From: an uncultured Fluviicola sp.
GTDB lineage: Bacteria > Bacteroidota > Bacteroidia > Flavobacteriales_D > Crocinitomicaceae
Assembly (NCBI GenBank): GCA_913009205.1
Contig: CAJVYC010000001.1
Span: 186,001 to 250,000, forward strand
Length of the DNA stretch: 64,000 bases
Direction: 5' to 3'
Numbering within the stretch: position 1 is the stretch's first letter; each line of letters opens with the position of its first letter. The notes beneath the pieces were generated by a model. It did not search any database. It saw only the letters and a program-made list of their open reading frames with translations, and had not been told where the DNA came from. The translations under genes and the position numbers were made by a program. Positions 10,076-14,047 of this stretch are shown piece after piece.

Positions 10076-10132
10076 AAATAATGTAACAATATTAATTCCA
10101 TGCGTTGTAGTATGTGAAGTAAGAGTTAAAAA

Positions 10133-12163
10133 ATGATGAAAACCAAAAATAACAATATGCGATTATTAAAATTTATGGCTGTTGCAGTAGCAGGAGCTTT
10201 TATCGTAGCATCGTGCTCTAGAGAAGCCTCTAACACTACGGGTTGGGAATATAACAATCCTAATCAAGGAGGATTTCAAAAAGTACCATTTATTGACCAA
10301 GAAACTGGACCAGGACTTCTTTTAGTAGAAGGTGGATCATTTACGATGGGTCGTTCTGAGCAAGACGTAATGTTCGATTGGAATAATAGACCAGCAAGAG
10401 TTACTGTTTCTTCTTTCTATATGGATCAAACGGAAATTACGAACTTCCAATGGCTAGAATATCTTTACTGGGTGCGACGTGCTTACCAAGAATCATATCC
10501 TATGATTTATGCTAATGCACTTCCTGATACTTTGGTATGGAGATCGAAGCTAGGAGATAATGAGAAGTATGTTGATTACTACTTGCGTCACCCTGCATAT
10601 AGAGATTATCCGGTTGTTGGAGTTTCATGGTTGCAAGCAAATGACTTTTGTAAATGGAGAACTGACCGTGTAAACGAATACATTCTTATTCGTGAGGGAA
10701 TTTTCCAATTCAATACGGATCAAAGAAATGAGAACACATTCAATACTGAAGCTTATTATACAGGTCAATATGACGAAGAATCATTAGTAAGAAATATTCA
10801 AAACTTAGATCCTGATGGTGGCGATAGAAAATTAGGAGAAAGAAATGTGCGCATGGAAGATGGCTTGCTTCTTCCTCGTTACAGACTTCCAACTGAAGCT
10901 GAATGGGAATTCGCCGCTTCTGGATTGATCGGAAACCTTCAAGAAGGAACAGAGAACATCAACGAAAGAAGAATCTATCCTTGGGATGGACACTGGGTTC
11001 GTCAAGACGAAGCGCAATTTACAGGACAGATTAGAGCGAATTTCGTAAGAGGTCGTGGTGATTACATGGGAGTTGCAGGACGCTTAAATGATGGTGCTGA
11101 TGTAACTGCTCCTGTTGAGTCATACTGGCCAAATGATTACGGATTGTACCACATGGCTGGAAACGTTAGTGAATGGGTAATGGATGTTTACCGTCCACTT
11201 ACTAGCGAAGATTACGATGAATTCCGTCCATTTAGAGGAAATGTATTCAAAACTAAATTATTGAACAGCGAAGGAAATGTTGAAACAGCGAACCAACAAG
11301 TTCAATATGATATTCACGGTATGAAAGAATACTTAAATGAGTTTGAAAGAATTCGTTATCAAAGAGTTTCTGCTGAGAATCACGATCCAAATGATACTAT
11401 TATCCCAACAGGATTAGCTGCTAACGTAGGATCAAGAAACCCATCAAGAAGAGGTTACGCTCCAGATCCTTTCTATGTATCTCACGGTAAAGTAAAAGAT
11501 TCTATTGAACTTGAGCTTATTAGAGATATTAACCTAGTAATTGACCAAGCACTTATTTATTCTAACAATAAACAGGACATTGAAGCTTCTGCTTTGGTTC
11601 AAGATGAATTGTTCGAGACAATCTTCGAAGATCAAATGAGAGAAGGACCAGATGGTGAAGAGTATGCATTTGAAGTTATCTCGATTTTAAGAGATGGATT
11701 TGGAGAATTCATTATTGATACTCCTGGTAAATTGAAATACCGTAATGTAACTGAAGAAGAAAATATTGGACGTTTAAATTACAGAAGAGATGATTACATC
11801 GATTACCTTGATGGTGATATTGAAAGCTCTATTTATTATGCAAATGAAGATAGAAAGAACGATATCAATCAGGCTACAAGAGATCCGAACTTAATCATGT
11901 ACCAAAACATGCACGAGCAGTATGGATTGGATGGTTCAATTGTTAAGCCTGGTGATAAAACATCTTGGCCAACAACACTTATCTCGGATAAGTCTAGAGT
12001 TTATAAAGGTGGTTCTTGGAAAGATAGAGCATACTGGTTAGCTCCGAGTCAAAGAAGATATTTAGATGAATTCCAATCTACAGATGCAATCGGTTTCCGT
12101 TGCGCAATGGATAGAGTTGGTTCTCCAGTAGGATTCAATTACGGAAAGAAAAAGAATAGATAA
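10133..12163 (+). CDS. gldJ: Gliding motility lipoprotein GldJ
   Basis: GldJ is an outer-membrane-associated lipoprotein needed for gliding and for stability of the T9SS ring protein GldK. The N-terminus has a lipoprotein signal ending in VASC, then TGWEYNNPNQGGFQ, the GldJ start signature. The rest is an FGE-sulfatase fold: VEGGSFTMGRSEQDV, MDQTEITNFQW, LPTEAEWEFAA, MAGNVSEWV, and at the end FKGGSWKDRA-like and GFRCAMDR motifs. At 676 aa it is longer than F. johnsoniae GldJ (about 560), with charged insertions in the second half. Neighbours porV-porU and murF match the conserved gldJ context. A rho-independent terminator follows. Confidence 0.94.
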   Translation: MMKTKNNNMRLLKFMAVAVAGAFIVASCSREASNTTGWEYNNPNQGGFQKVPFIDQETGPGLLLVEGGSFTMGRSEQDVMFDWNNRPARVTVSSFYMDQTEITNFQWLEYLYWVRRAYQESYPMIYANALPDTLVWRSKLGDNEKYVDYYLRHPAYRDYPVVGVSWLQANDFCKWRTDRVNEYILIREGIFQFNTDQRNENTFNTEAYYTGQYDEESLVRNIQNLDPDGGDRKLGERNVRMEDGLLLPRYRLPTEAEWEFAASGLIGNLQEGTENINERRIYPWDGHWVRQDEAQFTGQIRANFVRGRGDYMGVAGRLNDGADVTAPVESYWPNDYGLYHMAGNVSEWVMDVYRPLTSEDYDEFRPFRGNVFKTKLLNSEGNVETANQQVQYDIHGMKEYLNEFERIRYQRVSAENHDPNDTIIPTGLAANVGSRNPSRRGYAPDPFYVSHGKVKDSIELELIRDINLVIDQALIYSNNKQDIEASALVQDELFETIFEDQMREGPDGEEYAFEVISILRDGFGEFIIDTPGKLKYRNVTEEENIGRLNYRRDDYIDYLDGDIESSIYYANEDRKNDINQATRDPNLIMYQNMHEQYGLDGSIVKPGDKTSWPTTLISDKSRVYKGGSWKDRAYWLAPSQRRYLDEFQSTDAIGFRCAMDRVGSPVGFNYGKKKNR

Positions 12164-12189
12164 CTGCTCAAGTAGGTCTTAAAACATTA

Positions 12190-12225
12190 AAAACTCTTTC
12201 GGTTCAACCGAAGGAGTTTTTTTTT
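12190..12225 (+). terminator. Rho-independent terminator of gldJ
   Basis: A strong stem pairs AACTCtTTCGGTT with AACCGAAgGAGTT, followed by an uninterrupted run of nine or more T. It begins 26 bp after the gldJ stop. Confidence 0.9.
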
Positions 12226-12273
12226 GGCCCTACTCTATTCATTCCAACACCATTCCATTTGAAAGTAATTAAG

Positions 12274-12746
12274 ATGTAACAATACGATCGGACAACATTG
12301 TATTAGATGAAAGTGAGATTTCAAAATGAAAAAAACAATGAAAAAATGCGATTATCAATTTTCATGTCCGCTGTAGTTACAGAGATATTCATCATAATAT
12401 CATGATTATGACCCTCTTCATACACTACAGGATGGGATTACAACAACCCAAAAATAGGAGGATTTCAAAAAGTACCATTTATTGATCAAGAAATTGGACC
12501 AGGACTTATCCTCCTAGAAGGTGGATCATGAAAAGATAGAGCATATTGGTTGGCATCGGATCAAAGAAGGTGCTTCGCTGAATTTCAATCTAAAGAAGCC
12601 ATCGGGTTCCGTTGCGCAGTGGATAGGATTGGTTCTCCAGTAGGTTTTAATTATAGCCGAAAAAAGAAAAAGTAGCTATCCCACAAATAGACGTTCATAA
12701 TTTTAACAAGCTCTCTCAATTTAACCGAGAGAGCTTTCCTATTTTT
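12274..12746 (+). pseudogene. Decayed, internally deleted second copy of gldJ
   Basis: This stretch is a damaged tandem copy of gldJ together with its flanks. Position 12274 on matches the leader of gldJ starting at 10081; the coding remnant runs from an ATG at 12326 to TAG at 12675. It keeps the GldJ N-terminus (TGWDYNNPKIGGFQ-like, then VPFIDQ) and the last ~45 codons (AIGFRCAVDRIGSPVGFNYS-like). The ~1.5-1.7 kb middle is missing. The junction lies at GGTGGATCAT, which resembles the two GGTGGNTCNT sites at both ends of the deleted segment of the parent. In-frame stops near 12400 and at the junction show it is not translated. Even the terminator is duplicated. Confidence 0.93.
12709..12746 (+). 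terminator. Terminator following the gldJ remnant
   Basis: AGCTCTCTC pairs with GAGAGAGCT around an AATTTAACC loop and is followed by a T-rich tail. Its placement and loop sequence resemble the gldJ terminator, so it is probably the duplicated copy. Confidence 0.7.
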
Positions 12747-12751
12747 ATGAT

Positions 12752-14047
12752 ATGAACGAATTATTATTTCAACCTTTTTATAACTCCTCTGGGATCTGCA
12801 CTGACACAAGGGCTATCGAGAAAAACAGCTTATTCATTTGTATAAAAGGAGCTCATTTTAACGGAAACACATTTGCTTCTCAGGCTATTGAATATGGCGC
12901 ATCACATGTAATCGTTGACGAATCGGCTTATTACGTCAATAATGGAAAAATGACTTTAGTTGATAATAGTGTTAAATACCTTCAAGAGCTCGCCAATTTT
13001 CACCGGAATAAATTCAACATTCCTGTAATTGGCATAACAGGAAGCAATGGGAAAACGACGACCAAAGAGCTTATTGTACAGGTATTATCAAAGAAATACA
13101 ATTTATTAGCAACCATCGGGAACTTGAACAACCATTTAGGTGTTCCATTTACCTTGCTTCGAATGACAGATGAACATGAAATTGCTATCATCGAAATGGG
13201 TGCTAACAAATTCAAGGATATAGAAGAACTTTGTAACATTGCCGAACCTACGCATGGTATCATTACGAATGTTGGTAAAGCACACCTGGAAGGACTTATC
13301 GATTTTGCTGGTGTTTTAAGAACGAAAAAAGAACTCTACGACGCTGTGGAAAGGGTTAAAGGAACGATTATCATAAATGAGGACGATTCTAAACTTATGA
13401 ATGCCACTCCAATTGGAATTCCCTTAATAACATACGGTACAGACCATCAACTATCAATTGTTAGAGGAGAATTACTGAACCTCTCCCCTTTCGTTGAGAT
13501 GAATTGGAGAACTGAAACTTTCGAGTCAAAGAAAATATCGACGCAAATGGTCGGTAAGTATAATTTTTACAATTACCTGGCCGCAGCCGCTTTTGGCTAT
13601 CATTTTGGCGTTTCCAATGAAACCATTTCTGAAGCATTGGAAGAATATTCCCCAACGAACAATCGATCTCAGGTTAAGAGAACAGATGCAAATACGCTCA
13701 TTTTAGATTGCTACAATGCAAATCCAACAAGTATGCTATCTGCGTTAGAAAGCTTTTCCATGAACGACCACGAAAACAAATTATTCATTATTGGAGATAT
13801 GAAAGAACTTGGAACAGAAACTGCTGTTGAACATCAAAAGGTCATTGAGCAAATTGAATCGCTTGGACTAAAAGGAATTGTTGTTGGTAATGAATTTTGC
13901 AAAATAGCATCAAAATCGATTTTACATCATTTTGAAAATGCTAATGACGCGATGCGTTATCTAAATGAGAACAGTATTGAGAACCATCTCGTTTTATTGA
14001 AAGGCTCAAGAAGTATTCATTTGGAGATTCTGGAAAACAGCTTGTAA
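12752..14047 (+). CDS. murF: UDP-N-acetylmuramoyl-tripeptide--D-Ala-D-Ala ligase
   Basis: MurF adds D-Ala-D-Ala to UDP-MurNAc-tripeptide in the cytoplasm, the last soluble step of peptidoglycan precursor synthesis. The Mur-ligase P-loop GITGSNGKTTTKE is at residues 94-106, followed by GNLNNHLGVP, EMGANKFKDIE, NVGKAHLEG and the C-terminal DCYNANPTSM and GDMKELG motifs. Length, 431 aa, is normal. It follows the gldJ remnant and its terminator with a gap of about 5 bp, so its promoter must lie inside or before the remnant; gldJ-murF adjacency is common in Bacteroidota. Confidence 0.96.
   Translation: MNELLFQPFYNSSGICTDTRAIEKNSLFICIKGAHFNGNTFASQAIEYGASHVIVDESAYYVNNGKMTLVDNSVKYLQELANFHRNKFNIPVIGITGSNGKTTTKELIVQVLSKKYNLLATIGNLNNHLGVPFTLLRMTDEHEIAIIEMGANKFKDIEELCNIAEPTHGIITNVGKAHLEGLIDFAGVLRTKKELYDAVERVKGTIIINEDDSKLMNATPIGIPLITYGTDHQLSIVRGELLNLSPFVEMNWRTETFESKKISTQMVGKYNFYNYLAAAAFGYHFGVSNETISEALEEYSPTNNRSQVKRTDANTLILDCYNANPTSMLSALESFSMNDHENKLFIIGDMKELGTETAVEHQKVIEQIESLGLKGIVVGNEFCKIASKSILHHFENANDAMRYLNENSIENHLVLLKGSRSIHLEILENSL

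Follow-up and report, generated by a model that had tools for sequence, protein, structure and literature searches.

The window, a 64,000-nt stretch of DNA from an uncultured Fluviicola sp., carries two units of the gliding gene gldJ in a row: an intact one (10082-12221, from leader element to terminator) and a second, shortened and collinear one at 12275-12736 (Table 1). The second copy (copy 2) is a lineage-specific tandem duplicate: it has the same orientation as the first and is adjacent to it, its control elements were copied with it, and the two copies are close relatives. What is left of it is a gldJ pseudogene and not a member protein of the GldJ family. Very probably, the gldJ unit was duplicated in tandem, stayed under constraint for a long time and was then lost separately in different lineages, with a short-homology deletion in the lineage of the window.

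Table 1. Features of the gldJ-murF region (positions in the window).
Feature	Position	Strand	Basis
gldJ leader element TGTAAC-N15-CGTTGTA, promoter-like (putative role)	10082..10109	+	conservation among genus genomes
gldJ, intact parent copy	10133..12163	+	ORF; TIGR03524 511.3 bits, above the curated cut-off of 458.2
Terminator hairpin, gldJ copy 1	12189..12221	+	-18.3 kcal/mol, z -5.0
Copied leader element TGTAAC-N15-CATTGTA, one base off the genus form	12275..12302	+	sequence
N-terminal part of gldJ pseudogene	12346..12529	+	repeat, alignment, reading in gldJ frame
Deletion junction GGTGGATCAT	12520..12531	+	sequence
C-terminal part of gldJ pseudogene, ending with TAG	12530..12675	+	repeat, alignment, reading in gldJ frame
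Terminator hairpin, copy 2, directly 5' of murF	12708..12736	+	-15.1 kcal/mol, z -6.4; same tail precedes murF in G003
murF, intact	12752..14047	+	TIGR01143 357.9 bits, cut-off 288.6

In the remnant, the promoter-like element is followed by codons for the N-terminus, then by those for the C-terminus, and lastly by the terminator. Two ungapped repeats link it to the parent, one of 201 nt (10140-10340 and 12329-12529, 74% identity) and one of 160 nt (12006-12165 and 12518-12677, 79% identity), and local alignments of gldJ with the remnant scored 219.5 and 213.5, roughly fivefold the highest values among 200 shuffles (42.5 and 39.5). Between the repeats the register shift goes from 2189 to 512, so that 1677 nt, or 559 codons, are absent in frame, which bears out the internal deletion of about 1.5-1.7 kb proposed by the earlier note. 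In the parent, the deleted segment is bounded by GGTGGATCAT (10331-10340) and GGTGGTTCTT (12008-12017). The junction in the remnant (12520-12529) is identical to the former and agrees with the latter at eight of ten bases; that two short stretches so alike flank the loss, one of them being left at the junction, supports a deletion between similar sequences, as the same note had suggested.

Read in the gldJ frame, the 330 nt at 12346-12675 contain three TGA codons, confirming the expected stops, and zero frameshifts. One TGA (12403-12405) stands at the position of the lipobox Cys codon, another (12409-12411) two codons later, and the third (12529-12531), at the junction, takes the place of the Trp codon of the C-terminal GGSW. 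The two parts align to the ends of GldJ, namely to 60 codons at the gldJ start (counted from the ATG at 10157, which may be the true start) and to the last 50 codons, where 36 of 50 residues are the same. While the parent passes the GldJ family cut-off and has the FGE-sulfatase-like domain (PF03781, 139 bits), the remnant, derived from gldJ and collinear with it, lacks the 559 codons and has the three stops; these are the lesions that disable it.

In Flavobacterium johnsoniae, gliding and type IX secretion are reported to require GldJ (PMC11885536), and GldJ has been modelled as a subunit of the gliding track together with GldK and GldN (PMC12635249). On the 5' side of gldJ lies a PorP/SprF-family gene (TIGR03519; 9104-10075), which ends with ...CKDKIPSFKTISCPSF. 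Of 91 distinct stretches upstream of gldJ, 89 have codons for SCPSF followed by a stop, at the end of this gene. The tail is reminiscent of the SprF/PorG cysteine tails bonding to GldK that are described in PMC12635249, although the spacing of the cysteines differs.

Both the leader and the terminator were confirmed to have been copied along with the gene. Pairwise alignment placed them barely above shuffles (33 against a shuffle maximum of 29.5 for the leader; 34.5 against 26.0 for the terminator), and the case rests for the leader on a conserved element and for the terminator on a strong hairpin in both copies. A scan with a terminator pattern gave a single match, which is at the first hairpin (minus strand), and missed the second. 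TGTAAC-N15-C(G/A)TTGTA is present in the leaders of both window copies, and copy 2 of G003, the closest relative (see below), retains the exact motif (G003:C322:974-1001). Together with the repeats and alignments, these elements bear out the tandem duplication of gldJ with its leader, both termini and terminator. In a search for the 5' end of the duplication, the sprF tail was not detectable in the about 57-60 nt 5' of the copied leader (p 0.37-0.54).

The exact form TGTAAC-N15/16-CGTTGTA had 25 matches in 22 of the 34 genus genomes, the other twelve having none. Twenty three matches were directly upstream of gldJ (G003 twice, one per copy) and two elsewhere. The reversed pattern, used as a control, gave 24 matches across the same 34 genomes; hence the element is not merely rare by composition. 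A slightly broader form is matched by 26 of the 91 distinct upstream stretches (loci L007-L115), and the remaining 65 contain TGTAAC in 62 cases, TGTAAC-N13..19-CGTT in 29 and the form with a spacer of 8-25 in 46. By its sequence and distribution, the element appears to be promoter- or operator-like and nearly private to gldJ within the genus; it may be a promoter of the ECF-sigma type, to which it bears a resemblance. The second exact match in the genome of the window (L142, G000:C7:95720-95747) is near a 648-aa ORF that, by eye, has a secreted PKD-type look and a possible T9SS sorting tail.

Relatives were surveyed at loci L007-L115, obtained from a GldJ search of 119 relatives (matches listed) and a scan of genome contigs (best 80 of 197). 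All 109 loci have gldJ. The distance from gldJ to murF is 38-138 bp (median 61) in 95 loci with 80 distinct gldJ, compared to 588 bp in the window, and none of these 95 gaps is roomy enough for a second copy; in the other 14 loci, including L007 and L036 of G003, murF is off the contig or unmatched. G003 (Crocinitomicaceae MAG DT_24) is the closest relative by GldJ among the matches listed (91% identical), and its L007 and L036 are apparently the same contig (JABSPC010000389.1). At L036, a longer second gldJ copy follows directly behind gldJ, in the same place as the window remnant. It covers about residues 6-316 of GldJ up to the contig end and is disabled by two TAA codons and two insertions of one base each (+1). 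The rest of it, the second half, was not found among the G003 contigs, and the G003 contig with murF starts within the same terminator tail as that of the window copy 2. The earlier note had proposed to look in relatives for an intact second gldJ before murF: a second copy indeed exists in G003, but it is dead too, and none of the genomes examined (L007-L115, among the matches listed) has an intact one behind gldJ. The dead copy and the remnant together support the claim that a gliding gene was once duplicated and then lost.

When the 34 genus genomes were searched at the DNA level with the remnant (12440-12680), 27 of them gave a match. Outside the window and beyond gldJ itself, the search found the second copy of G003, a GldJ-like stretch in G032 and a second gldJ in G005 (contig C77). 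Faint remnants in remote genomes may have escaped these searches of relatives. The G032 stretch (G032:C207:1890-2588; 47% identity, residues 22-265, two TGA and one TAA) is possibly another decayed GldJ-type paralogue of the genus. The second gldJ of G005 (L116; L090 looks like the same contig) belongs to a separate porU-sprF-gldJ block with 44-64% identity, possibly contamination or a second gliding cluster. G049, considered as a further tandem case, was rejected because its two sprF-gldJ-murF sets lie on separate contigs. The plasmid collection gave just distant FGE-type matches (58 records, none spanning 80% of the query), and no tandem gldJ before murF was met in the portions of open-licence PubMed Central literature that the search returned.

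The suggestion that murF is now read across the scar found no support, as relatives, too, usually have a gldJ terminator immediately ahead of the murF start. Inspected by eye, 22 of 28 gaps have a T-rich stretch behind the gldJ hairpin and, within about 20 bases of that hairpin, the murF start; in the other six, murF lies farther from the hairpin. In the window and in G003, the last terminator still shows the short arrangement. As the duplication and the deletion are both upstream of this terminator, the sequence gives no sign that murF would be read in a new way.

Next we considered the relationship of the copies. In a tree of 309 codons, G003 copy 2 falls outside the first copies of the window and G003 (UFBoot 100), and these three are grouped apart from locus L018 with a support of 81; the duplication possibly predates the split from L018. 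Single-site support in the portion absent from the remnant is 15 for this order versus 6 and 7 for the others. The third-position differences agree with it, being 0.30 between the first copies, 0.40-0.41 between copy 1 and copy 2, and 0.43-0.57 to five other species. The tree of 110 remnant codons recovers the same group, but its inner order conflicts: both copy-2 sequences are placed beside the window gldJ and not outside both first copies (UFBoot 100). Parsimony sites in these codons are few and conflicting (1-3 for window gldJ with copy 2, 0-3 for L007 with copy 2 and 1-4 for window gldJ with L007), and we would give more weight to the longer data.

There is no clear sign of gene conversion between the copies in the 60 codons common to both copy-2 sequences, where the window copy 2 shows 47 differences from the gldJ beside it and 50 from that of its sister; for G003 copy 2 the numbers are 45 (own gldJ) and 43 (window gldJ). 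In the C-terminal part, three sites unite the two window copies and zero unite copy 2 with the gldJ of the sister; a small conversion may have occurred there.

To describe the selection on copy 2, we used a codon model of the GY94 type with F3x4 frequencies, written for this analysis (background omega about 0.035). Over its whole path, G003 copy 2 has an omega of 0.098 (306 sense codons; p = 7e-8 versus 1 and 3e-4 versus the background), or 0.086 without the signal peptide (p 1e-6), and the window copy 2 has 0.144 (107 sense codons; p = 4e-5 versus 1), so that constraint in the remnant is relaxed relative to the parent (p 0.002 versus the background). When branches were fitted separately, the copy-2 stem had an omega of 0.042 (p 7e-5 versus 1, 0.69 versus the background), the G003 terminal branch 0.41, indistinguishable from neutral (p 0.60 versus 1), and the window terminal branch 0.27, marginally below one (p 0.03) and above the background (p 9e-6). 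The stem value leans on codons present in one copy-2 sequence, since the 60 comparable codons, with seven silent and ten replacing shared changes, are not clearly constrained. G003 copy 2 has two stops, while 15.5 would be expected if it had always been neutral (P 2.5e-5); the window copy 2 has three versus 7.6, a difference that is not significant (P 0.056). These data show that copy 2 was under purifying selection for most of its life.

Its death was probably late and separate in the two lineages. A model with separate deaths is favoured over one with a shared death (lnL -8033.5 versus -8038.3, with one parameter more), and no lesion is common to both copy-2 sequences in the 60 comparable codons. 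The fitted neutral phases amount to some 11% and 17% of the span after the split, rough values that assume equal silent rates.

Other origins of copy 2 were weighed against this history. A related gldJ could have been acquired horizontally and inserted between gldJ and murF. The 20-26% DNA difference between copy 2 and the first copies, which differ mutually by 14%, and the support of just 81 for excluding L018 would fit such a transfer; yet the nearest sequences in both trees are first copies of the same lineage, copy 2 stands in tandem and has a leader and a terminator of its own, and inspection by eye of the ORFs at 5-18 kb revealed no mobile-element gene; we regard a transfer as very unlikely. 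An assembly artefact has next to no probability: L036 is on a MAG contig and G003 is fragmented (about 800 contigs, compared to 37 in the window genome), but a diverged second copy is at the same place in two separate assemblies, and the divergence between the copies follows codon structure.

Two further readings grant the remnant a function after the deletion. A small lipoprotein, composed of the signal peptide and the GldJ C-terminal tail, could have lived on and acquired its stops later, which would agree with the frame kept by the deletion, the absence of frameshifts over 330 nt and the terminal omega below one. However, GGS motifs in the same codon phase yield an in-frame outcome without selection, a functional phase preceding the deletion accounts for the low omega, which moreover exceeds the background, and the stops hit the lipobox Cys codon, the next codon but one and the junction; this makes such a protein improbable. 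Still smaller is the chance that the remnant functions today as a regulatory RNA, a murF leader or a peptide (12550-12675) repeating the GldJ C-terminal tail. A 41-aa ORF does start from TTG at 12550, the hairpin 5' of murF is intact and the C-terminal part is fairly well preserved, while on the other side there is no Rfam match at the gathering threshold (651 bases) and no Pfam match (two pieces), the leader element deviates from the genus form, and a remnant of this kind would not fit into any of the 95 gaps measured in relatives.

According to the history of duplication and separate loss that we prefer, the whole gldJ transcription unit (leader, gene and terminator) would have undergone tandem duplication in an ancestor shared by the window organism and G003, which placed copy 2 between gldJ and murF. 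Copy 2 would then have been kept as a working gldJ paralogue under purifying selection for most of its existence, and would have lost this constraint later, most likely independently in each lineage, perhaps due to redundancy. Stops and one-base insertions would have killed it in the G003 lineage, and stops and the 1677-nt in-frame deletion, in whichever order, in that of the window. The deletion presumably occurred via short homology between two GGTGG(A/T)TC(A/T)T stretches coding for GGS motifs near both ends of GldJ. Deletion between short direct repeats is of the replication-slippage type; the window case is like it in its similar endpoints and in the one copy left at the junction, and differs in that the stretches are imperfect (8/10) and code for conserved motifs in the same codon phase.

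The type of event is already known, being ordinary gene duplication and loss. In Cardinium cSfur, gldJ likewise occurs twice in one genome through duplication, a segmental one to which PMC6147030 ascribes the two copies; that account has the copy together with five genes next to it that show 100% identity, whereas the window copy is a single gene, in tandem, diverged, long selected and then lost. What is new compared to the earlier note is the longer dead copy of the sister, the history of selection on copy 2 and the leader element of gldJ.

It is conceivable, though doubtful, that the lineage long ran two separately promoted and separately constrained GldJ proteins, possibly two kinds of subunits of the GldJ-GldK-GldN track, and that at least two descendants then dropped the second in parallel. 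The loss, in related bacteria, of a second GldJ that had long been selected is a natural experiment on the number of track subunits needed, and the copied leader points to a regulatory element seemingly almost private to gldJ.
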